39,310 nucleotides of DNA from Acidobacteriota bacterium (lineage in GTDB: Bacteria > Acidobacteriota > Vicinamibacteria > Vicinamibacterales > JAKQTR01). The notes under the pieces are model-generated. The model did no database searches and was not told the origin of the DNA. It was given only the letters and a program-made list of their open reading frames with translations. How positions within the stretch are numbered: the stretch's first letter is position 1; each line of letters starts with the position of its first letter. The position numbers were made by a program, and so were the translations under genes. Below, in pieces: positions 1 through 8,313 of this stretch. Where the stretch lies: the NCBI GenBank assembly GCA_026393755.1, contig JAPKZO010000040.1, forward strand, positions 1 through 39,310, in the 5' to 3' direction.

Positions 1-47
1 AACCAGCGCTCGACGTCGGTCACGGTCTCAGATGCGCGGGTAGCCAT
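1..47 (-). CDS. N-terminal start of an unidentified gene, cut by the window edge
   Basis: An ATG at 47 opens a minus-strand frame that stays open to the left edge and begins MATRASETVTDVERW. Fifteen residues are too few to assign a family. It lies just left of a short inverted repeat (52-73) and the attC-like site at 166-238, so it is probably the gene of the preceding integron cassette, read against the array direction like the VapBC and HicAB genes further on. It could also be a chance frame. Confidence 0.35.
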   Translation of the reverse strand, partial: MATRASETVTDVERW

Positions 48-51
48 AGTA

Positions 52-73
52 TATGTGTAATGTAACACACATA
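52..73. promoter_or_regulatory. 7-bp inverted repeat, possible operator
   Basis: TATGTGT (52-58) is mirrored exactly by ACACATA (67-73) across 8 bp of AT-rich DNA, five bases upstream of the ATG at 47. Autoregulated small genes such as antitoxins often carry such an operator over their promoter. The function is inferred from position and symmetry only. Confidence 0.35.
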
Positions 74-154
74 CCTCGCCGTTTCAACAGGCACGCTTCC
101 GTGTCATTTTTCAGTGATGCTCAAAACTGGGGGTGGGCAAGAGATTCTGGGGTG

Positions 155-183
155 TTGACATGGCGCCTCAACGGCGCTATACC
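155..183 (+). promoter_or_regulatory. Candidate sigma70-type promoter overlapping an attC site, reading towards brnTA
   Basis: TTGACA (155-160) and TATACC (178-183) are separated by 17 bp. The -10 element lies in the left arm of the attC-like site, so transcription would start near 190 and run into brnT. The -35 is a perfect consensus; the -10 matches four of six positions. It could serve as the cassette promoter. Confidence 0.4.
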
Positions 184-238
184 CGACCGGCGCCGATGAT
201 ATCGTGAGCGCCGGCGGGTGAGCGCGGAACGGTTATGC
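166..238 (+). other. attC-like integron recombination site 1
   Basis: Left arm GCGCT-A-TACCCG-A-CCGGCGC (174-193) pairs with right arm GCGCCGGCGGGTGAGCGC (208-225), leaving A179 and A186 unpaired. The right core is GTTATGC (232-238), one base off GTTRRRY. The left inverse core CCTCAAC (166-172) fits YYYAAC. The layout R''-L''-loop-L'-R', with unpaired bases on one arm only, is diagnostic for integron attC sites. The 14-nt loop gives a compact 73-bp site. The next cassette (brnTA) would begin at 233. Confidence 0.75.
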
Positions 239-295
239 CGTCGATACAGGCGGGCTTCCACTCAGTCAATACATCGTGCATACTTAGTGAAGCGT

Positions 296-586
296 ATGTC
301 GGACATCCAGTTCGAGTGGGATTCGGCCAAGGCCGAGGCGAACCTCAGGAAACACGGGGTGAGCTTCGAAGAGGCCGAGACCGTATTCTCGGACGACCTG
401 GCGTTGTTGATTGACGACCCGGATCATTCCGACGAAGAGGAGTGCTTCGTCTTGTTGGGGGTGAGCGTCGCCCCTCGAATTCTGGCGGTGGTGCATGCGT
501 ATCGTTCGGCGCCGGAGCTGATTCGCATCATCTCGGCTCGGAAAGCCACGAAGTCGGAGCGCACGACGTATGTGAAGAGGCCTTGA
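296..586 (+). CDS. brnT: BrnT-family toxin (type II toxin-antitoxin)
   Basis: A 96-residue protein with the BrnT pattern: FEWDSAKAEANLRKHGVSF at the N-terminus, a central EEAETVF, then IRIISARKATKSER near the end. BrnT toxins are RelE-fold ribonucleases that inhibit translation, and the C-terminal R-I-I-S-A-R-x-A segment is a family hallmark. I chose ATG 296 because the family begins at this FEWDxxKxxxN block; an upstream start at 218 would add 26 unrelated residues overlapping attC. The gene lies two bases before brnA, in the usual toxin-first order of BrnTA. A weak inverted repeat (CATAC 279-283, GTATG 294-298) overlaps the start and could be an operator. Length is normal and nothing looks broken. 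Confidence 0.9.
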   Translation: MSDIQFEWDSAKAEANLRKHGVSFEEAETVFSDDLALLIDDPDHSDEEECFVLLGVSVAPRILAVVHAYRSAPELIRIISARKATKSERTTYVKRP

Positions 587-588
587 CC

Positions 589-819
589 ATGAGAAAAGAA
601 TACGACTTCCGCCATGCGCAACCGAATCCCTATGCGAAGCGATTGAAGCGATCGGTCACGATTCGAATCGACGAGGCGACAATCGCGTATTTCAAAGGCC
701 TCGCTGCGGAAAACGGAGTTCCGTATCAAACGCTCATCAATTCGTACTTGCGGGACTGCGCATCATCCAAGCGGCGTCCGATGACGCGCTGGCTTGAAGC
801 GACGAGAGGCGCGGCCTGA
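589..819 (+). CDS. brnA: BrnA-family antitoxin
   Basis: A 76-residue basic protein. After an N-terminal toxin-contacting stretch (EYDFRHAQPNPYAKRLKR) it has a ribbon-helix-helix DNA-binding part: SVTIRIDEATIAYFKGLA followed by GVPYQTLINSYLRD. BrnA neutralises BrnT and represses its own operon through this fold. ATG 589 is two bases after the brnT stop, so the pair is translationally coupled. The module follows attC site 1 directly, so it may be an integron cassette, but I cannot find the GCATAAC inverse core that should close it before 1254. That end of the cassette seems lost. Confidence 0.88.
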   Translation: MRKEYDFRHAQPNPYAKRLKRSVTIRIDEATIAYFKGLAAENGVPYQTLINSYLRDCASSKRRPMTRWLEATRGAA

Positions 820-902
820 GGACGCCGAAACACCAGCAGCGGCCTCGAGCATCTTCCTGCACACGTCTCTGGCTGCGCCGACTCGCCAATACTTGAAGCA
901 AG

Positions 903-1114
903 CTTGAAACTCTGCGCCTCAGAACGCCCAACACGACCGCTCAGCACCTGACGCTTGACGCCGAAAACGCCAACAAACCCGACACCACCCGCAACTACTT
1001 CACCCGCTTCTTTCGACTGTGGCTCCGGAAGTCGCGGGTTCGAACCCCGTTACCTACCCCACTTCCCTTCTCCAACTCCCGCAACAACTTCGCGTCGGTG
1101 TCGTCGAAGGCCGG
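903..1114 (+). repeat. 212-bp direct repeat, copy 1 (partner at 2190-2401)
   Basis: Both copies open with CTTGAAACTCTGCGCCTCAG and close with TCGTCGAAGG-C/A-C/A-GGG; each is 212 bp, and the offset is 1,287 bp. Conservation is strongest over the shared tRNA-His 3' fragment and the 20 bases before it. The copies bracket the whole VapBC cassette. There is no protein gene in 820-1110. Confidence 0.75.
1016..1061 (+). other. 3' half of a tRNA-His gene (att-site-like), copy 1
   Basis: From the anticodon loop CTGTGGC (GTG, His) it continues through a 3' anticodon arm, T-arm GCGGG-TTCGAAC-CCCGT, acceptor strand TACCTAC, discriminator C and encoded CCA. A C at position 73 is typical of bacterial tRNA-His. 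No 5' half is present, so it is not a functional tRNA. Tyrosine integrases often recombine in tRNA genes at the anticodon loop, which is where the homology begins. Confidence 0.7.
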
Positions 1115-1266
1115 GCCTGCACATCTGCCCACGTCATCGACAGCATCTCGCCACGACTGAGGCCCAAGTCAAGAGCGGCAATGATCATCGGCCGGACGTG
1201 ACCGGCCACGACGTCTAGCAGCTTCTTCTCGTCCTCAGCGGGAAGGCGACGATGTTGGGCGGACAA
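1111..1266 (-). pseudogene. Fragment of a tyrosine recombinase (phage-type integrase)
   Basis: Reading leftwards, RLPAEDEKKLLDVV is followed by an I-A-A-L-D-L-G-L-S-R-G-E-M-L stretch and TWADVQARP. This matches the start of the integrase catalytic domain, where the first catalytic arginine lies in the T-G-[LM]-R-x-x-E box. Here that arginine position reads serine. After ARP the frame is lost, and an alternative frame (DDTDAKLLRELEKG) runs up to the tRNA-His fragment, so the middle of the gene is deleted. The rightmost bases overlap the GTTGGGC core at 1254, so the cassette may have inserted at or near the fragment's end. It is most likely the integrase of the element that targeted tRNA-His, not an integron integrase. 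Confidence 0.6.
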
Positions 1267-1287
1267 CAGAAATCCGGCTACTCGGCA

Positions 1288-1722
1288 TCAACCACCAGCC
1301 CGCCGCTTCGACCAGTTCTCGACTCGCAGATCAGTGAAGCGCGAAAAGTCCCTGGTGTTGACCGTGACGAGCACGAGCTTGCTGGCGTGAGCAATCGCAG
1401 CGATCTGTCCGTCGACGTACGGAACCGGTCGGCCGCGTGCTTCCAGTCGTGCTCGCTCGTGACCGTGCCACGTGGCCGCCGCGTCATCGTAGGGCAAGAT
1501 CGGAAATGACGCACGTACGACGTCTCTCAGGTAGGTCTCGAGGGCTGATCGGCGCCGACCCTGCGGAAGGCGGCGGCATCCGTACGTCAATTCGTGCCAC
1601 ACCGGGGCCGCGATGGCGCATTCGTGTCCATGTTCGTTGAGCCGTTCGACGATGTCCGCATCGGGAATCTTGGAGATCGGTGACGAGACGGTGCTCGTAT
1701 CCAGCAGATACCGCAACGTCAT
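1288..1722 (-). CDS. vapC: VapC-type PIN-domain ribonuclease toxin
   Basis: A 144-residue PIN domain protein. The conserved acidic residues are visible: D8 in YLLDTSTVSSP, the glutamate in PVWHELTYG, the aspartate in PYVDGQIAAIA, and a later TVNTRDFSRF. These residues bind Mg2+ in the active site, and VapC toxins cut RNA, typically tRNA or rRNA. The start overlaps the antitoxin stop by four bases (ATGA, 1719-1722), so translation is coupled. It is an intact, full-length gene inside the cassette at 1254-2117. The partner is a Phd/YefM-type antitoxin; such mixed pairing with PIN toxins is well known. Confidence 0.9.
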   Translation of the reverse strand: MTLRYLLDTSTVSSPISKIPDADIVERLNEHGHECAIAAPVWHELTYGCRRLPQGRRRSALETYLRDVVRASFPILPYDDAAATWHGHERARLEARGRPVPYVDGQIAAIAHASKLVLVTVNTRDFSRFTDLRVENWSKRRAGG

Positions 1723-1997
1723 AGCGAGACCGTGCGCCCGGCGCTCTTCTCCCGGATGGGCGCGAAGAAGTCGTTATCGAATCCAACTTCGTCGAGCGAG
1801 TACCGTTTGAGGAAGTCAAGGTAGGCCGTGCGGAACCGGGGTCGGTCAGCTCGCAGGCGTTCAAGAACTCGGAGGGCGACGACAGCAGCGACTGGCTTAC
1901 CCCTGCGAGTCAGTTCGATCTCGACTCCGGCTTCGGCTTGGTCGACGATGCTGGGCAGGCTGCTTCGGGCCTCTGCGATGGAATACCGGTGGGACAT
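1719..1997 (-). CDS. Phd/YefM-family antitoxin of the VapC at 1288
   Basis: A 92-residue protein beginning SHRYSIAEARSSLPSIVDQ, with GVEIELTRRGKPVAAVVAL in the middle. This is the Phd/YefM fold: an N-terminal DNA-binding dimer and a disordered C-terminus (YSLDEVGFDNDFFAP) that wraps the toxin. It should neutralise VapC and repress the operon. Upstream of ATG 1997 are two TGTACA palindromes whose centres are 12 bp apart, the arrangement known for YefM operators. It lies first in the operon, as is usual for antitoxins. Confidence 0.9.
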   Translation of the reverse strand: MSHRYSIAEARSSLPSIVDQAEAGVEIELTRRGKPVAAVVALRVLERLRADRPRFRTAYLDFLKRYSLDEVGFDNDFFAPIREKSAGRTVSL

Positions 1998-2006
1998 ATC
2001 CCATAA

Positions 2007-2024
2007 TGTACATCTAAGTGTACA
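2007..2024. promoter_or_regulatory. YefM-type operator: two TGTACA palindromes 12 bp apart
   Basis: TGTACA at 2007-2012 and again at 2019-2024, with TCTAAG between, ten bases upstream of the antitoxin start. The E. coli YefM-YoeB operator uses adjacent palindromes with TGTACA cores at 12-bp centre spacing, so this is the expected site for the Phd/YefM protein encoded next to it. Confidence 0.7.
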
Positions 2025-2042
2025 CTAGCGCAATATGTTCTC

Positions 2043-2117
2043 GCCCAACCAACGGCTGCACCCGACGGCCGGGAATGCTCGGGGTGCACGGCCGCGGGTG
2101 AGCCGTGATCGTGACGC
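2043..2117 (+). other. attC-like integron recombination site 2 (end of the VapBC cassette)
   Basis: Inverse core GCCCAAC (2043-2049) fits RYYYAAC exactly. Left arm ACGGCT-G-CACCCG-A-CGGCCG (2052-2071) pairs perfectly with right arm CGGCCGCGGGTGAGCCGT (2089-2106), leaving G2058 and A2065 unpaired. The right core position holds GTGACGC (2111-2117), which departs from GTTRRRY. The same GTGACGC and about 35 further bases follow attC site 3. Confidence 0.75.
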
Positions 2118-2150
2118 GTCTGGATGCGCAACAAGCTCCGCTCACAGCGA
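2110..2150 (+). repeat. 41-bp block following attC site 2 (second copy at 5423-5463)
   Basis: Begins CGTGACGCGTCTGGATGCGC and ends CTCACAGCGA; the copy at 5423-5463 differs only at 2136 (C here, T there). Similarity starts exactly at the attC core position and fades after 2150, as if the same incoming DNA had been joined to two different attC sites. Confidence 0.7.
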
Positions 2151-2189
2151 TCTGCGCGGCTACGGTGGCGATCTCCCGCATGAAACGAT

Positions 2190-2401
2190 CTTGAAACTCT
2201 GCGCCTCAGAACGCACGACGCGGCCATAGAACACCCGACGCAGTGGGCCGAGATCGCCAACAACACCGACACGACCAGCGACTGCTTCACCCGCTTCTTT
2301 CGACTGTGGCTCCGGAAGTCGCGGGTTCGAACCCCGTTACCCACCCCACTTCCCCGCCCCAACTCCTGCAACACCTTCGCGCGTTGTCGTCGAAGGCAGG
2401 G
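2190..2401 (+). repeat. 212-bp direct repeat, copy 2 (partner at 903-1114)
   Basis: Second copy of the repeat bracketing the VapBC cassette. It carries its own tRNA-His 3' fragment (2303-2348). Unlike copy 1 it is not followed by integrase-like coding sequence. Confidence 0.75.
2303..2348 (+). other. 3' half of a tRNA-His gene (att-site-like), copy 2
   Basis: Anticodon loop CTGTGGC, T-arm GCGGG-TTCGAAC-CCCGT, acceptor strand TACCCAC, discriminator C and CCA. It differs from copy 1 by one base in the acceptor strand. There is no 5' half. Confidence 0.7.
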
Positions 2402-2796
2402 ATGTCTGATGGCGCCGGTCCATCGTGATCGCACTTTCTGATTCTTCATGATCGCCGTGCCGCTGATGTTCGTCGTCTCGTTGACCAACTGATCCTCGGC
2501 AGGTGATGGCGGGTGTTCGGGACCGTGCGGGCGATCATGATCGCCGGTGCGGCGATCGGGATCGCGGATTCCGGGGTCTCGACCTGGGATTCCGGCGATC
2601 GTGATCGGGACGCCGGAGGCGGCCACGCTTCGCACCCGCGTGCTCTTCTGCTGGGTACTGCTCATCCATTCGGAGCCTCTACTGCATGCTACGCCCTTCG
2701 GTTCGAATCCACCGGGGAGATGCTGCTCTTGGACGTCAATCCGGGGCTCGTGGGTACGACGTGGCCCGTGTCGCCCACGGCGCGGCGACGGGCGGA
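2402..2796. other. About 395 bp without a recognisable gene
   Basis: This stretch has many short GATC/CGATC motifs and near-repeats such as GGATTCCGG around 2566-2600. Open frames exist on both strands, but none resembles a protein family I know. It is probably decayed DNA between the tRNA-fragment repeat and the broken gene at 2797. Confidence 0.4.
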
Positions 2797-3183
2797 GTGA
2801 CCGTGGTCTTTCCATCCTCGAAGTGCCCGGAGGGACCCTACGGCTTCGGCACGATCAACGCGACCGGGAACGCCCTGCATATGGGCAACATTGATATCCG
2901 TACGGAGCAGTGCCTCAACGTCGTCACGGGCGTCATCGACGGGAAGCTCATTGTCCTGACGGCGGCAAACGGCGATGAACTCCACGGGACGTTCACTGGA
3001 GAATCAGCGTCGGCGGGGGGGATCGGGACCGTATTCAAAACCACGTTTACGTTGGTATTCAACGGCGGGACGGGGCGGTTCGAGAACGCGACCGGGACGG
3101 CGGAAGTGACAGGCGTGGTGACCAACGCGGCGAGTTACCCGTGGCCGGGTCGCTGGGAATGGACCGGAACGATCCGCTACTGA
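2797..3183 (+). pseudogene. C-terminal part of a secreted barrel-like protein, 5' end missing
   Basis: The frame encodes GTINATGNALHMGNIDIRT, VLTAANGDELHGTFTG, VFNGGTGRFENATGTAEV and a closing WEWTGTIRY. This pattern (G-T-x-x-x-x-H-x-G, a T-A-x-N-G-D block, then G-G-T-G-R-F-x-x-A-T-G) is common in small exported beta-barrel-like proteins of unknown function in soil bacteria. Those have a signal peptide; here the frame upstream of 2797 gives no signal sequence and no family match, so the start seems lost. GTG 2797 could allow a truncated product. It stands alone between repeats, with no operon partner. Confidence 0.5.
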
Positions 3184-3676
3184 TGCCATCGTTGAGCACA
3201 TTATGTCGAGTGGCCTGACCGCATGGTGAGGCCGCGCAAGCGGGAGCGGAGGGAGGGGCGATCGACCGGACCGAGGCAGACGGGTGCCGAGCGGGCGGTG
3301 GTCAGTGGCGTGCCTGCGAGGTCTCATCACGTGTGGGCTCCTGCCGGAGACATCAGGCAAGAACCATGACAGGTATGGCTGCCGACACGGGTTCGGCATG
3401 CTGCAGCACGGCGAAACCCGAAGAATTCACAGGCGAGGCATCAGTTGGCCGACGCTCTGGAGCCGTGCGACGCAAGCGTTCACGCCGGCGGAGATCACGG
3501 ATTCTTTGCGTTCTGGGAGAGTCCCAACGTAAAAACCCTTTCAGGGGGAGGAGACCACTTGCGGTGATCGTAGCTAAGTCGTAACCCTTCACTTCTGTCG
3601 AGGCTCCACCGGAGTGCGCTGGCGCGACGCCGAACGCGTGGAGGAGAAACTGTTGGCCCCCGCGGACTTGGGCGAA
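3184..3676. other. About 490 bp without a supported gene
   Basis: Several short frames are open on both strands, but none shows a family pattern or a convincing start. I see no tRNA, attC site or strong hairpin. It separates the broken gene at 2797-3183 from the end of the gene at 3677. Confidence 0.4.
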
Positions 3677-4507
3677 CTAGCGAATCCTTGCGACCGCCGA
3701 CCGACACCCCATCTGAGCAAGGTCGATCGCACGCTCTTGAGAAGCACCCAATGCGGCAACTTCCGCTCGGTTGTCGGCGAGTCGCTCGACACGATGCACG
3801 AGATCAGGGTCTCGGGTCGCCGCGGCCAGTCCACATGCCTCCATGACGATCCCCGCCACGTCAGCGTCCGTCGCGCCCTGTGGAGCATGCACGGTCTGAA
3901 CACCAGTCAGTCGCATCCAAGCCACCGCGCGTACCCTCGCGTCGAGCTGTGTTGACAACCTGGTTCGCTGTTCCGAGCCCATGATCAAGGCCAGCGTCCG
4001 CAGCGCGCCAGTTACTTCACCGGCAGATGGGCCATTCGCACCGATGTCACCAGCCCCGGCCACGGTGACGAGCAAGGGGACGAGTTGACTAGGCTCGAAG
4101 CGCACCAACGCGTAGATGGCGGTCATTCCAGAATCGACGGAGCCAACTAGACTCGGAATCGCCGCCGGATCGCCCAGTTTGGCGACAACCCGGACGAGCG
4201 CTAGGTAGTAATCGGCTTCGAAGTCATCCAACTTGGCACCCCGGAGCGACAACGCACGCCGTCGCCCGCGCTCAGAGTTTAGTCGGTCGAGTTCGTCGCA
4301 TAGCGCCCTCAACAAAGTCGGGCTCACTTGACCGGGGGGCAGTCTCTCGAGGTACGCAACAGTGGCGTTCCGCTCTCGCTGCGGTCCCTTGGTCAGGCGA
4401 GAGACGAGCTGTTCCTCCGAGGGAATCGCTGTTTGGGCGAGTACCGACCCATCACACATTACGAAGGAGACCAAAGCAACTGCGATCGTTAGGAGTGGTT
4501 TTCTCAT
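3677..4507 (-). CDS. Secreted helical-repeat (HEAT-like) protein, function unknown
   Basis: 276 residues with an N-terminal signal peptide (MRKPLLTIAVALVSF, cleavage likely after SVLA-Q). The mature part is rich in paired amphipathic helices (YLERLPPGQVSPTLLRALCD, YYLALVRVVAKLGDPAAIPSL, TAIYALVRFEPSQLVPLLVT), as in HEAT/armadillo-type solenoids that mediate protein contacts; no catalytic motif is visible. I chose ATG 4507 because AAGGAGA lies seven bases upstream and the signal peptide begins there; the frame opens further upstream at 4663, but that extension has no coding look and overlaps the M15 gene. It starts 16 bp after the M15 gene ends, so the two probably formed an operon. Confidence 0.65.
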   Translation of the reverse strand: MRKPLLTIAVALVSFVMCDGSVLAQTAIPSEEQLVSRLTKGPQRERNATVAYLERLPPGQVSPTLLRALCDELDRLNSERGRRRALSLRGAKLDDFEADYYLALVRVVAKLGDPAAIPSLVGSVDSGMTAIYALVRFEPSQLVPLLVTVAGAGDIGANGPSAGEVTGALRTLALIMGSEQRTRLSTQLDARVRAVAWMRLTGVQTVHAPQGATDADVAGIVMEACGLAAATRDPDLVHRVERLADNRAEVAALGASQERAIDLAQMGCRSAVARIR

Positions 4508-4523
4508 TCCGCTTCTCCTTGCG

Positions 4524-5150
4524 CTACCAAGCCACATGCAAGTGATGATCAGCAGGATACGTGTCCCAGTCGAGAAGCTCCACAGGCCACGACACACAGG
4601 CAGCGTACCGCAGCAACATGAATTCGCCGTAGTCGTTGCGCACCTCCGGATAGAGATCGACACCTCTTCCGAACTGGTGGTAGCTCCCTGCCACCGCCCC
4701 TACTATCGCAGCATTCCGAACCGGGCAGCGATAGCCACAGGTCACGGTAATCTCCTTGCCGTAGGTGATTGACCGCATGATGTCGAGGTTCCACCAGACA
4801 TCGCTCGAAACGATGCCCCAGGGCACGTGATCGTTGTCCTCTTGGTGGTTCAGTTGAGCCCATGAGAAGTAGGTCGAGGAACCACCGGTTGAGAATTCGG
4901 AGCATGCGGGTACCGTTAGGCCCTTAGACGCGTACTCCCCCGGAGGACATTGAGATCAGGGTCACCGCACCCCTCCGGCTCTCCTCCTCCCCCCACCGGT
5001 TCCGGCGCCGGCGCCGGATACGGATCTTCGGCCAGCATTCCGTCACCACCATCAGTCCTGTGTCCCCACATCCCGTACTGGAGGGCATCCAAGCGCCCAT
5101 ACTCTGCCACGACCTGTACATCGTCGTAGAGGAAGAATTCGTAAGAGCAA
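4524..5150 (-). pseudogene. Broken M15-type (D-Ala-D-Ala carboxypeptidase-like) peptidase gene
   Basis: The downstream part (4524-4955) reads GLTVPACSEFS, YFSWAQLN, WGIVSSDVWWNLDIMR, TCGYRCPVRNAA, SYHQFGRGVDLYP and a terminal DHHLHVAW. That is the M15 peptidase layout, with zinc ligands expected in the S-x-H-x-x-G-x-x-V-D-L box and the final HxH. It has no start except an internal GTG at 4826 that would cut off part of the fold, and a stop (TGA) at 4956-4958 blocks it upstream. A different frame upstream encodes YDDVQVVAEYGRLDALQYG and a proline/glycine-rich linker (PYPAPAPEPVGGGG), which looks like the N-terminus of the same protein. A frameshift near 4930-4955 therefore seems likely. The 5' end vanishes near 5150, where another gene's DNA begins. 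Confidence 0.55.
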
Positions 5151-5157
5151 CCGGCCC

Positions 5158-5415
5158 GAGTACGATTTCTCGCAAGGCGTCCGCGGGAAGCACCACAAGG
5201 CCTATCAAGCCGGCACCAACATCGTGTTTCTTGCGCCGGATATTGCGGCGGTTTTCCCGGATTCCCCGTCGGTAGATCAGGCACTGCGTTTGTTGGTACG
5301 ACTTTCGAAGACGACGGCCGTGATTGGCAGCCGGCCTAATAAGGCGCTGCAGCCGACGAGCCGCGTTCGACAGAAAGCCAAATCAAAGGAACGGGCACGC
5401 GCGGCTCGCGGCTGA
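5158..5415 (+). pseudogene. C-terminal fragment of a small antitoxin-like protein, running into attC site 3
   Basis: The frame reads EYDFSQGVRGKHHKAYQAG, then TNIVFLAPDIAAVFPDSPSV and DQALRLLVRLSK. I know this pattern (E-Y-D-F-x-x-G-x-R-G-K ... G-T-N-V-V-x-L-x-P-D-V-A ... F-P-x-S-x-x-V-N-x-A-L-R) from small proteins encoded next to DUF5615 PIN-like toxins, where they act as putative antitoxins. No ATG or GTG precedes the conserved block before it runs into the M15 gene of the other strand, so the 5' end is missing. No toxin partner remains. The reading frame continues through attC to 5415, giving the tail RPNKALQPTSR, typical of genes read through attC. Confidence 0.55.
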
Positions 5416-5430
5416 GCGCTCGCGTGACGC
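5334..5430 (+). other. attC-like integron recombination site 3
   Basis: Inverse core GCCTAAT (5334-5340; one base off RYYYAAC). Left arm GCGCT-G-CAGCCG-A-CGAGCCGCG (5344-5365) pairs exactly with right arm CGCGGCTCG-CGGCTG-AGCGC (5400-5419), with G5349 and A5356 unpaired. The right core position is GTGACGC (5424-5430), as in site 2. The 34-nt loop makes it longer than site 1. It lies at the 3' end of a plus-strand antitoxin fragment, the usual place for attC in a cassette. Confidence 0.75.
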
Positions 5431-5463
5431 GTCTGGATGCGCAACAAGTTCCGCTCACAGCGA
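5423..5463 (+). repeat. 41-bp block following attC site 3 (copy of 2110-2150)
   Basis: Identical to 2110-2150 except one base (T5449). It starts at the attC core position. After 5463 the two copies diverge. The following 110 bp up to 5574 hold no recognisable gene. Confidence 0.7.
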
Positions 5464-5591
5464 ATTCGCGCGTGAGCTCTTCGACCTTCATTCTCCTGTT
5501 CAAATCCGGACGACGAGCGCTTCGGGGTTCTGGTGTGTGAAATGCCGCGTTCTGCGTATTGGACGTTGGGCAGATAACACGGAAATCGAAA

Positions 5592-5804
5592 TCAGAGATC
5601 TTCGGGACGCAGGCCAGTGCGCTTCGCAACCCGGACAAGCATGCGGGGGCCAAGTTCCTCGTCGTCGTGGAAGGCAAACACGAAATCGGGCCAGCCCTCC
5701 CGCGAGAGGGTTCGGTGCGAGCCAGACTGGCGCTTGAGCCTCCACCCGATTCGGAGCAGGGCTGCGAAGACGCGACGAGCCTTCGCGGACGGCCAGGTGC
5801 TCAC
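5592..5804 (-). CDS. hicA: HicA-family mRNA interferase toxin
   Basis: A 70-residue basic protein of the HicA double-stranded-RNA-binding-like fold. It shows ALLRIGWRLKRQSGSHRTL, with the catalytic histidine in the G-S-H box, then DFVFAFHDDEELGPRMLVRVAKRTGL, which matches the H-x-x-x-E-L and C-terminal helix of the family. HicA cleaves mRNA and tmRNA. Its start overlaps the hicB stop by four bases (5801-5804). Here the antitoxin gene comes first, the reverse of the E. coli order but common elsewhere. It is intact and lies inside the cassette at 5574-6077. Confidence 0.88.
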   Translation of the reverse strand: MSTWPSAKARRVFAALLRIGWRLKRQSGSHRTLSREGWPDFVFAFHDDEELGPRMLVRVAKRTGLRPEDL

Positions 5805-6013
5805 GCGGCAAGAAACGAGACGTTCAGGAACTCGGCGGGGGCCTCAGCGTGATCGAGCCGTTCGGCAAGCACCCGGAGTGCGAGCGCCTGGACGCGGGCA
5901 ATCGCCTCATCTCGGGTTGCGCCGTAGCAGAGTACGCCGGCAAGGTCTGGGACCTCGGCAATCCAGCGACCGTCGTCTTCGAGTTCGAGTTCTATTCGGA
6001 AACTGTGGCTCAC
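5801..6013 (-). CDS. hicB: HicB-family antitoxin
   Basis: With the GTG start at 6013 the product is 70 residues, beginning SHSFRIELELEDDGRWIAEV and followed by PDLAGVLCYGATRDEAIARV. This is the degenerate RNase H-like HicB fold (D-x-D-G-x-W-x-A-E-V-P-D-L-x-G-V, then the G-A-T-x-x-E-A box). It lacks the extra C-terminal DNA-binding domain of larger HicB proteins, so autoregulation may be indirect. An upstream ATG at 6043 would add ten cysteine-rich residues unlike the family, so I prefer GTG 6013. It overlaps hicA by four bases. Confidence 0.85.
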   Translation of the reverse strand: MSHSFRIELELEDDGRWIAEVPDLAGVLCYGATRDEAIARVQALALRVLAERLDHAEAPAEFLNVSFLAA

Positions 6014-6044
6014 GGACGTACAGTAACACGACCGGCAAGTCACT

Positions 6045-6077
6045 GCCCAACGAGGCGCTGCGGCCGACGAGCCGCGG
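6045..6077 (+). other. Left half of an attC-like site (site 4)
   Basis: Inverse core GCCCAAC (6045-6051) and left arm GCGCT-G-CGGCCG-A-CGAGCCGCG (6055-6076), nearly identical to site 3. No complementary right arm or GTT core follows; the sequence changes at once into the broken gene at 6079. The site is therefore inactive as it stands. Confidence 0.65.
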
Positions 6078-6078
6078 T

Positions 6079-6465
6079 GTCATCGTCGCGTATCGCGATC
6101 GATCGGAACAGGAGATCCGCGACATCAGCGTCGCTCGGGCGGACGGCGGCACCTGGAAACTCGGAGGCGTCCTTCACGCCGATGGCTGGAAGATCGCCGC
6201 CTGCCCGGTCAATGGGCCCGCGCTGGCGACGAACGGCGATGCGGTGGCGCTGGCGTGGTTCACCGCCGCCGGCGATCAGGGTCGCGTAAAGGTGACGATA
6301 TCGCGTGACGGCGGCGCCATGTCGTGGATCGAGTTCGCGCACGCGAAAGCCGACCTGGTGGTGGCTTGGCGCACGTCGGGCGCTGCGCCGCACATCAGGA
6401 TCGTCACGACGAAAGTCCCGGCCGACGCCGGGCCAACTACACCACCTGAAGCCCAACGTCGCTAG
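6079..6465 (+). pseudogene. Fragment of a secreted sialidase/BNR-repeat-like protein with an internal deletion
   Basis: The frame reads VAYRDRSEQEIRDISVARAD, GVLHADGWKIAACPVNGPAL, AVALAWFTAAG and TISRDGGA, the conserved core of an exported beta-propeller-like protein found in many soil bacteria. Right after DGGA it jumps to MSWIEFAHAKADLVV. In full-length relatives the S-W-I-E segment comes some thirty residues later, so a stretch seems deleted in frame. The N-terminal half is missing because the sequence starts directly at the half attC. There is no signal peptide or start. The first 240 bp downstream (6466-6702) hold no gene I can name. Confidence 0.55.
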
Positions 6466-6702
6466 CAGATTGTCCAGACTCCGTCCGGTTTCCTCAAAGA
6501 CCATCAGCCGCGCAAGAGCGAGCTCCGGATGGCAGTTCCTGCCACGCCGGTCACCGGTGGAGTTCGCAGTTTCTGCAACAGGCCTCATGCCGATCTGCTG
6601 ATTCCGCAGCAATCCTGACATTCGCTGCCGGCACACACTGTGCAGAAGCGCTATCAGCGCGAAGCGCCTGGCTGCAGCGACATCGGGCAGACGTGAGGAG
6701 AC

Positions 6703-6741
6703 TTGACATATGAGCATCGTTATTGATATGTCTAGACATAT
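6703..6741 (+). promoter_or_regulatory. Promoter and palindromic operator of the second VapBC operon
   Basis: TTGACA (6703-6708) is a consensus -35 element. A perfect 16-bp palindrome ATATGTCTAGACATAT (6726-6741) covers the -10 position and the first bases of the vapB start codon. A third half site, GACATAT (6705-6711), overlaps the -35. A repressor on these sites would block both transcription and translation start, as expected for antitoxin autoregulation. Confidence 0.6.
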
Positions 6742-6985
6742 GCGAACCACTGTTCGGCTTGATGATGCGCTGCTCGAGCAGGCGCAACGGGAGGCGCGCA
6801 GGCGAGGTCAGACGCTGACCGCGCTGATGGCAGAAGGTCTGCGGTTGATGCTGGCCAAGGGCACCGTGGTGCCGAAGCGGTCGCCCGTGATCCTGCCGGT
6901 GTGCAAGGCAGGCGGCGGCACGTTGCCGGGTGTCGATCTCGACGATTCGGCGGCGCTGCTCGACATCATGGAGGAGCGGTCGTGA
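6740..6985 (+). CDS. vapB: Ribbon-helix-helix VapB-type antitoxin
   Basis: 81 residues starting MRTTVRLDDALLEQAQREAR, then RRGQTLTALMAEGLRLML: a classical ribbon-helix-helix DNA-binding unit with beta-strand RTTVRLD and two helices. The C-terminal part (LPVCKAGGGTLPGVDLDDSA, LLDIMEERS) resembles the toxin-binding tail of VapB proteins. I chose ATG 6740 because the beta-strand begins there; two ATGs upstream lie inside the operator. The stop overlaps the vapC start (GTGA, 6982-6985). Expected roles are inhibition of the neighbouring VapC and repression at the palindrome at 6726-6741. Confidence 0.85.
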   Translation: MRTTVRLDDALLEQAQREARRRGQTLTALMAEGLRLMLAKGTVVPKRSPVILPVCKAGGGTLPGVDLDDSAALLDIMEERS

Positions 6986-7407
6986 CGCTCTCCGATGTCA
7001 ACGTGCTGATCTATGCATTCCGGTCGGATGCGGCAGGCCATCAGGCGTATCGGGAGTGGCTGCGGGCCACGGTCAATGGTGACGAAGCCTACGGCATCGC
7101 GCCGCAGGTCCTTTCGTCGTTCGTGCGAGTGGTGACGAACCGTCGCGTGTTCGCCCAGCCGAGCAGGCTGGACGAAACGCTGCTCTTCTGCCACACGCTG
7201 ATGGAACAACCGCACTGCCAGCTGATCCAACCCGGCCCGCGGCACTGGAAGATCTTCTCCGACCTGTGCCGGCACTCGAAAGCCACCGGTAACCTCGTCG
7301 CCGATGCGTGGTTCGCCGCGCTGGCGATCGAATCAGGGTGCGAATGGATCACGACCGATCGCGATTACGCGCGATTCGAGGGGCTCCGATGGAGGACGCC
7401 GGTTTGA
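6982..7407 (+). CDS. vapC: VapC-type PIN-domain ribonuclease toxin
   Basis: 141 residues from GTG 6982: LSDVNVLIYAFRSDAAGH carries the first catalytic aspartate, IAPQVLSSFVRVVTN the second conserved region (with S-S-F-V in place of the usual E), and LVADAWFAALAIESGCEWIT, TTDRDYARF the last two acidic positions. This is the PIN subfamily with D-V-N-V-L-[IL]-Y-A-F. The GTG overlaps the vapB stop by four bases. It is not enclosed by attC sites, so it may be chromosomal. It ends three bases before the REP-like hairpins. Confidence 0.88.
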   Translation: MTLSDVNVLIYAFRSDAAGHQAYREWLRATVNGDEAYGIAPQVLSSFVRVVTNRRVFAQPSRLDETLLFCHTLMEQPHCQLIQPGPRHWKIFSDLCRHSKATGNLVADAWFAALAIESGCEWITTDRDYARFEGLRWRTPV

Positions 7408-7409
7408 AC

Positions 7410-7476
7410 GGTGGGGCGGGCACGGCATGCCGTGCCCCTACGAACTGCATGGCGGGCGCGATGAATCGCGCCCCTA
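7410..7476. repeat. Two REP-like hairpins back to back
   Basis: GGGCACGGCATGCCGTGCCC (7418-7437) is a perfect 20-bp palindrome followed by CTACGA. GGGCGCGAT-GA-ATCGCGCCC (7454-7473) is a second one followed by CTAC. Each is flanked by GG-CGGGC on the left and CCCCTAC on the right, so they are two versions of one element (GTAGGGGC...GCCC on the minus strand). They lie between two converging genes and could end transcription both ways. A shortened copy lies at 18506-18526. Confidence 0.65.
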
Positions 7477-8313
7477 CTGCGCGCGCTTGACGGCCCACTT
7501 CGTCGTGGTGCCGTTTGACGCGACCGTCCCCTCGATGGTGCTGCCGTTGACGCGGCCCTTGTACTGCGCGCCGTTGACCGTAAAGCTGATCTGATCTGCG
7601 ACAAGCCTTCCGCCCGCAATCGGCGTCGAACCCGCACCATTCTTGAGCGACCCGGTCACGATCTGGAATTCCTGCGTGAGCGTCAACTCTCCCTGCGCGG
7701 ACTGCCATGTGCCCGCCGCCTTCGCCGGCACAATCCAGAGGTATGCCGTGCAGTACGACGTGCAGTCTTCCGTCACCGTCACAGTGTCATCAGCGGTCCA
7801 CTCGCCCATCGTGAACGAATTCGACACGATGCGCGTGCCGGGCTTCAGGTCCAGAATCTTCGGCCGCAATCTGAGGTTGATGTCCGGCAACAGAAACATC
7901 GTGATGACAGTGGCCGTGGAGAAATCGCTCTCGAACAGGTCGGCCTTCTCGAACGTGGCCCGCGCGCTCACACCCGCCTCAGCGGCGGCGCGCTTCGACA
8001 GCTCCACCATGTCGGGGTTGTACTCGATGCCGTGCGCCCGCGCGCCGCGCTTGGCCGCCGTGATCACCGTGCGCCCGTCACCCGATCCCAGGTCGAAGAC
8101 GACATCCTGCGCGGTCACCTTGGCGATATCGAGCATCTTCTCTACCAGCGTCTGAGACGTCGGCAGCCAGATCACGTCCTTGCCGGCCTGGCCGGGCGTC
8201 GGCTGAAACTGACCGGGCGGAGGCTGCTGCTGCGCGTGTCCGAACGCGCCAGCTGCCACGACAGCCACTAACACAACCAGAAGCAAGCGGCGAGCGGAAT
8301 GCGGTGCCTTCAT
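7474..8313 (-). CDS. Exported class I SAM-dependent methyltransferase
   Basis: 279 residues. An N-terminal signal sequence (LLLVVLVAVVAAGAFGHAQ) is followed by a proline/glutamine-rich spacer and a class I methyltransferase domain: motif I DLGSGDGR at residues 74-81, the acidic GIEYNP near 95-100, a later TMFLLPDINLRLRP. From about residue 205 a beta-rich tail (GTWQSAQGELTLTQEFQIVTG to the C-terminus) is added. I chose ATG 8313 because GGAGG lies just upstream and the signal sequence starts there. The methyl acceptor is unknown. SAM is not known to be available outside the cytosol, so the signal sequence is puzzling. The stop codon TAG lies within the REP-like element. Confidence 0.7.
   Translation of the reverse strand: MKAPHSARRLLLVVLVAVVAAGAFGHAQQQPPPGQFQPTPGQAGKDVIWLPTSQTLVEKMLDIAKVTAQDVVFDLGSGDGRTVITAAKRGARAHGIEYNPDMVELSKRAAAEAGVSARATFEKADLFESDFSTATVITMFLLPDINLRLRPKILDLKPGTRIVSNSFTMGEWTADDTVTVTEDCTSYCTAYLWIVPAKAAGTWQSAQGELTLTQEFQIVTGSLKNGAGSTPIAGGRLVADQISFTVNGAQYKGRVNGSTIEGTVASNGTTTKWAVKRAQ

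Follow-up and report, generated by a model that had tools for sequence, protein, structure and literature searches.

Toxin-antitoxin cassettes in a probable remnant of an integron array from an Acidobacteriota genome

Are the toxin-antitoxin (TA) genes at one end of an Acidobacteriota contig integron cassettes, and if so, what became of their integron? The stretch of DNA that we analysed (the window; 39,310 bases) is the left end of contig C40 (JAPKZO010000040.1; 377,523 bases), from a genome of 4.43 Mb in 42 contigs (GCA_026393755.1, or G000). An integron integrase (IntI) recombines a folded attC site with a second att site, and the crossover falls at G^TT. A preliminary description of the window had proposed that its VapBC and HicAB modules are complete cassettes, that BrnTA follows another attC site, and that the whole resembles a cluster of attC sites lacking an integron integrase (CALIN). 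We conclude that positions 165-6076 are probably a scrambled, CALIN-type remnant of an integron array, made up largely of TA cassettes.

The TA cassettes and their attC sites

Relatives carry the VapBC and HicAB cassettes in better preserved arrays. We searched 162 genomes of the same order with the DNA of the VapBC unit and of the HicAB unit. Positions 1254-2064 of the window match G001:C37:5146-5956, from a genome of the same genus (89.9% identity over 811 bases), and the homology begins at position 1254, which is the G of GTTGGGC. In that relative, the VapBC cassette follows one attC site (L263, 5068-5152; 38.5 bits) and carries its own (5935-6008; 52 bits). Similarly, positions 5561-6069 match G024:C17:6683-6175, from another family (89.4% over 509 bases). 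Here the homology begins four bases before the start core, where the preceding attC site ends in G024, and the HicAB cassette of G024 has an attC site on each side (60.5 and 76 bits). The distance from the start core to the inverse core is the same in the window and in the relative for both cassettes (789 bases for VapBC, 480 for HicAB). So the proposal that breaks in relatives should fall at GTTGGGC withstood the comparison, as did the view that these TA modules are genuine cassettes that read against the array.

The bit scores come from a covariance model, R1, which we built solely from attC sites collected close to integron integrases in other genomes of the order (G000 supplied none). Its alignment holds 31 of the 41 sites collected. 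(We omitted five near-identical sites, two degenerate sites from L064, and L057:13961, L063:17848, and L074:2664.) The structure covaries, with 90.9% of cells paired versus 76.6% in shuffles and 82 double-change cells versus 28.1, and a separate structure prediction for the aligned sites gives the same central stem. We detected attC sites with nhmmer and the covariance model, as scans for core pairs plus folding were too strict or too noisy. The E-values of R1 are rough, as its calibration was short.

Run without filters, R1 gives significant scores to three of the four proposed attC sites in the window (Table 1), and the best match besides these has 17.1 bits. The fourth candidate (6045-6107) is at the model's background level (13.6 bits, E = 0.2); it scores low because only the 5' half of an attC site is present. 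The gaps between the three significant sites are 1.8 and 3.2 kb, and the distance rule of IntegronFinder is 4 kb. A CALIN has at least two close attC sites, two being the default threshold given in PMC12444791, and the window has three.

By themselves, the 7-base core pairs are weak evidence because GTTGGGC is frequent in the window. It occurs 7 times on the plus strand, with the cassette start cores at 1254-1260 and 5565-5571, and the chance of finding it upstream of a fixed point is about 13% within 789 bases and about 8% within 480 bases. The inverse core GCCCAAC is found at 926, 2043, 6045, and 6451, and the copies at 926 (inside a tRNA-related repeat) and 6451 lie outside every R1 match. 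More generally, GTTRRRY is not enriched (39 copies versus a mean of 36.25 in shuffles). The core pairs become significant because the relatives show matching boundaries, flanking attC sites, and equal lengths.

The VapBC unit is a cassette by definition: its start core is complementary to its own inverse core, which is followed by a folded attC site. The HicAB unit in the window is a truncated cassette. Its cores match and its homologue in G024 is complete, but its attC site lacks the 3' half. Thus, of the modules described as complete, VapBC is, while HicAB is cut short, and its start core lies at 5565 rather than 5574 (the VapBC start at 1254 was right). BrnTA does follow an attC site, as described, but has no matching attC of its own: GCATAAC, which would match its start core, is absent from positions 1-7500 of the window.

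Both units have matches elsewhere in the order. HicAB had some match in 50 of the 162 genomes (many of them to the attC part alone) and VapBC in 28 (several to the attC part alone). Among the loci that we scanned with R1 (which excludes matches such as L238 and L283), HicAB had attC on both sides in 5 of 11, on one side in 2, and on neither in 4. For VapBC, the counts were 1, 2 (35.1 and 22.3 bits), and 5 of 8.

These cassettes have probably moved between lineages, because attC sites flank the same cassettes in two relatives, one a member of another family. For HicAB, transfer is favored because its DNA identity to G024 (89%) far exceeds the 61% protein identity of the best G024 match to a methyltransferase adjacent to the array. 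The boundaries are observed directly; the movement itself we infer from the identities.

Table 1. Features at the left end of the window
Feature	Position	Strand	Evidence
Insertion sequence end at contig edge; gene reads off the contig	1-160	-	Bases 1-141 identical to starts of C7 (reversed) and C15
attC site 1	165-238	+	R1 28.4 bits, E 1.6e-5; core GTTATGC
BrnT-BrnA pair after attC site 1	296-819	+	BrnT 296-586, PF04365 E 1.4e-27; BrnA 589-819, PF14384 E 1e-7
DJ-1/PfpI cassette gene fragment	818-881	+	86% nucleotide identity to intact cassette gene in G001:C46
Repeat D1 copy 1, with tRNA-His 3' end	891-1115		Sequence comparison
Probable tyrosine recombinase remnant, abuts VapBC start core	1116-1254	-	Translation; weak similarity to phage integrases
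VapBC-type cassette	1254-2110	+	Start core GTTGGGC at 1254, inverse core GCCCAAC at 2043; 89.9% nucleotide identity to G001:C37
PIN-domain toxin, intact frame	1288-1722	-	PF01850 E 2e-10
Phd/YefM-type antitoxin, intact frame, overlaps toxin gene	1719-1997	-	PF02604 E 5.4e-10
attC site 2	2043-2115	+	R1 40.0 bits, E 9.6e-9; R' position is GTGACGC
DJ-1/PfpI cassette fragment joined to attC site 2	2111-2182	+	91.7% nucleotide identity to G001:C46
Repeat D1 copy 2, with tRNA-His 3' end	2183-2401		2302-2349 identical (48/48) to C7 at its tRNA-His gene
Antitoxin gene, 5'-truncated; BrnT-like toxin gone	5152-5333	+	89.9% nucleotide identity over 5152-5419 to G001:C2
attC site 3	5334-5430	+	R1 36.5 bits, E 9e-8; R' position is GTGACGC
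DJ-1/PfpI cassette fragment, internal deletion	5424-5484	+	Same first base of gene as copy at 2111
HicAB cassette	5565-6076	+	Start core GTTGGGC at 5565, inverse core GCCCAAC at 6045; attC 3' half gone
HicA toxin, intact frame	5592-5804	-	PF07927 E 2.9e-10
HicB-like antitoxin, intact frame, overlaps hicA	5801-6013	-	PF15919 E 0.0041 (below cut-off significance); position next to hicA
Conserved-gene remnant at right edge of array	6079-6465	+	Matches in 28 of 60 genomes (own included) at E <= 1e-5

Remnants between and around the cassettes

Three TA pairs in the region are complete, with intact frames. Only fragments are left of the DJ-1/PfpI gene, the probable recombinase, and the right-hand gene, and one antitoxin gene no longer has its toxin partner. 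(The HicB-like gene at 5801-6013 had no Pfam match at E <= 0.001; its PF15919 match came from a scan of the frame 5801-6043.) attC site 3 belongs to the cassette of the toxin-less antitoxin; in G001:C2 this BrnT/antitoxin cassette is complete and is flanked on each side by attC. The DJ-1/PfpI gene (PF01965, E = 4.2e-28) is intact as a cassette gene in G001:C46. Its exact crossover with the attC site at 5334 is uncertain by a few bases.

The recombinase remnant had no match in Pfam, and none in plasmids at E <= 0.01. In phage records, tblastn gave 8 weak matches, 6 of them annotated as integrase (best E = 4e-3). We considered whether VapBC had inserted into a single tyrosine recombinase gene, so that its two flanks would make up the empty site; this is ruled out, as the right flank is part of the DJ-1/PfpI cassette. 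The two diverged copies of repeat D1, together with G000:C7:3634-3690, are possible attachment repeats of an element that integrates at tRNA-His.

At the right edge, the attC site of HicAB is cut at 6076 and adjoins the remnant of a conserved gene. All matches to this gene outside G000 end by residue 82 of 127. At the left edge, C7 continues past the shared insertion sequence (IS) end with frames that match DUF6788 (E = 1e-6) and DDE_Tnp_1 (E = 3.1e-8).

Between attC sites 2 and 3 lies a non-cassette stretch (3677-5150), with a fragment similar to Peptidase M15 (4524-4826, minus strand) and a 328-amino-acid frame without a Pfam match. Just beyond the array is a second VapB/PIN pair (6710-7407, plus strand), with no attC match beside it. 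The DNA of positions 1-6500 had one weak match in plasmids, at 6173-6319.

The integrase and the other attC clusters of the genome

We then asked where the integrase is. The window was described as lacking one, and indeed none of the 12 matches to TIGR02249 in the whole genome lies in it. The absence does not extend to the genome: the sole match above the cut-off is a complete intI with tyrosine recombinase domains (G000:C36:101592-102536; 426.5 bits, cut-off 265). The five best named relatives of this IntI come from Acidobacteriota metagenome-assembled genomes, in agreement with the impression that the genome is Acidobacteriota-like. A complete integron has intI, attI, and attC in one locus, and the window has no intI match.

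Is the window simply the distal part of the C36 integron, separated from it by the assembly alone? We consider this unlikely. C36 carries an attC site with its intI and ends about 2 kb past intI, in an array that leaves the contig in a fitting direction, and C40 starts beside an attC site. But the two contigs end in different insertion sequences. C36 ends in an IS with a DDE transposase, whereas C40 starts in an IS that is common to C7 and C15. A direct join between C36 and the window is thus unsupported. The IS end on C36 is 90.7% identical over 140 bases to a copy on C11, and the other end of the C11 copy matches the end of C39 (87.9% over 140 bases), which carries an attC array of its own. 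TTAG lies beside the IS at both the C36 and the C39 ends. C38 finishes in this IS too, with an end identical to that of C36 (141 of 141 bases). A join of C36 to C39 would be simpler than one of C36 to C40, and neither is proven. We also tried to join contigs by synteny, using the methyltransferase on the array side and a UPF0029 gene on the intI side, and obtained no answer: the methyltransferase has no match at E <= 1e-20 in the nearest genome (G001), and the UPF0029 gene has matches in 6 of 60 genomes of the order (own included).

As a side observation, the IS with the DDE transposase is found at C36:104471-104610, at the right end of C39, at the end of C38, and at L132:241-1620 (C11), with TTAG at the ends as read by eye. 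TTAG also occurs within the common attC core GTTAGGC, so this IS may prefer such sites.

G000 has at least 27 attC sites at E <= 1e-3, in 11 places on 10 contigs; two of these places are in the window. (This count is a lower bound, as 150 of 10,630 candidates were scored.) The attC clusters of G000 look older or less active than the arrays of relatives, with the caveat that the two sets were sampled differently. By eye, the GTT of R' is retained in 20 of 32 sites from G000 versus 40 of 42 in the relatives' arrays (Fisher p = 0.0006), or in 14 of 20 versus 40 of 42 at 37 bits or more (p = 0.011). For G000 we used 32 of 33 rows, leaving out one opposite-strand duplicate. For the relatives we used 42 of 59, leaving out 3 rows from the window, 10 opposite-strand duplicates, and 4 weaker rows (3 of which keep GTT).

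The other clusters also seem to have a lower TA content than the window, because few TA families are found in 30 of their proteins. (Six other clusters supplied 28 of these, located between attC sites, and the remaining 2 are neighbors of the last site scored on C39.) Pfam matches were to PIN (2 proteins) and to LDcluster4, Fic, DUF4160, Rap1a, and MazE (1 each).

We surveyed 60 genomes of the order, including G000 and the genomes that had supplied sites to R1, for intI, attC, and the right-edge gene. intI is above the cut-off in 17, and 45 have at least one attC match at E <= 0.01. In 9 of 13 integron loci, by eye, intI and attC share a strand and the array lies 3' of intI (L064 from G019, L048, L049, L066, L063, L065, L068, L075, and L043). 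Treponema denticola has been described as having such a 'reverse integron' (PMC4909258). The other 4, C36 among them, have the usual arrangement.

How the cluster may have arisen

In the scenario that we prefer, an array was rearranged into a remnant. The integron integrase would have moved the TA cassettes as units, with boundaries at G^TTGGGC. Insertion sequences, recombination linked to tRNA-His, and deletions would then have broken up the array and severed it from its integrase. Both start cores would thereby have lost the attC ahead of them; the identities of the flanks are established by sequence comparison, and from there we infer the order of events. The TA pairs could have been retained by addiction, as losing them would be penalised, while the other cassette genes would be free to decay. 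Retention by addiction is probably the simplest reading of the intact TA pairs.

Several observations weigh against this scenario. First, past two of the three attC sites (2043 and 5334) the sequence continues in the middle of the DJ-1/PfpI gene. Second, R1 finds no attC directly before either GTTGGGC start core in the window. So the array that was described consists of real cassettes but is not continuous. Third, the VapBC unit seems often to lie outside arrays, because 5 of its 8 scanned loci have no attC on either side. Fourth, the window begins at a contig edge inside an IS, beyond which an intI could lie. Fifth, the argument for TA retention draws on three pairs that are known only from their frames and family matches. 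Finally, the mosaic was read from a draft assembly.

A different origin is that an integrase acting in trans inserted the cassettes singly at non-att sites (attG-type insertion), and that there never was an array here. Insertion at off-target sites is among three origins proposed for CALINs (PMC8618304). VapBC has the expected signature: non-att DNA meets G^TTGGGC at its left junction, and at its right junction the attC site is joined, near R', to non-core DNA. Also, the DJ-1/PfpI fragments at 2111 and 5424 share their first base and follow different attC sites, and these two junctions look like the work of an integrase. But the flanks of VapBC are not from one gene, since the right one is part of the DJ-1/PfpI cassette, and the right junction reads GTG instead of the recognition motif, which is given as GNT (PMC10127599). 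An array accounts better for finding several different cassettes together, and no uninterrupted empty site was found in relatives. We therefore think that single insertions are an improbable origin, and we favor rearrangement.

A more specific version is equally doubtful. In it, the C36 integrase would have inserted TA cassettes close to tRNA-His, at sites other than att, and would also have cut the DJ-1/PfpI cassette internally. The shorter cassette made in this way, beginning at G^TGACGC, would have ended up after two different attC sites, and TA addiction would then have held the remnant in place. If off-target insertion did occur, then the locus records cassettes settling outside integrons in a natural genome.

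That the sites are chance palindromes beside ordinary chromosomal TA genes, with no integron involved, is hardly conceivable: GTTRRRY is no more frequent than in shuffles and the 6045 site is at background, but the R1 scores, the matching cassette lengths, and the attC-flanked homologues in relatives all speak against it.

As the locus shows, TA cassettes can have the same boundaries in genomes from different families of one Acidobacteriota order. If it is an array remnant, it would be a case of TA pairs outlasting the array that carried them. G000 would be a natural place to ask whether TA cassettes preserve clusters after separation from the integrase.

The locus is not a new kind of element. 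Integrons of Acidobacteriota, CALINs, and TA cassettes are each already in print: attC covariance models have been published for 11 taxa, Acidobacteria among them (PMC8352920), and Acidobacteriota is on a list of integron-bearing phyla (PMC8618304), a paper that also describes CALINs. The suggestion that such arrays are little described in this phylum is therefore true only in part. (A title-level search of a partial literature collection turned up no paper titled on Acidobacteriota integrons.)

Compared to attG insertion (Loot et al. 2024, as cited in PMC12901181 and PMC12444791), the window similarly has cassette boundaries at or near the crossover base beside non-att DNA, but differs in its junction motif and in the lack of a detected empty site. 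As in a CALIN, a few kb of the window hold several attC sites with cassette genes in between, and no intI match falls inside the window. Unlike in a typical CALIN, its sites are separated by non-cassette DNA, two R' cores are lost, one side is a contig edge, and an intI is present elsewhere in the same genome. As for the TA cassettes, the chromosomal integron of Vibrio cholerae has 19, and integron TA systems have promoters of their own (PMC11023631); a HicAB cassette was reported in an integron of T. denticola (PMC4909258). As in those integrons, the cassettes of the window are small type II TA operons, HicAB included. Here, however, they are found in an Acidobacteriota genome, in a decayed remnant, and VapBC and HicAB read against the array.

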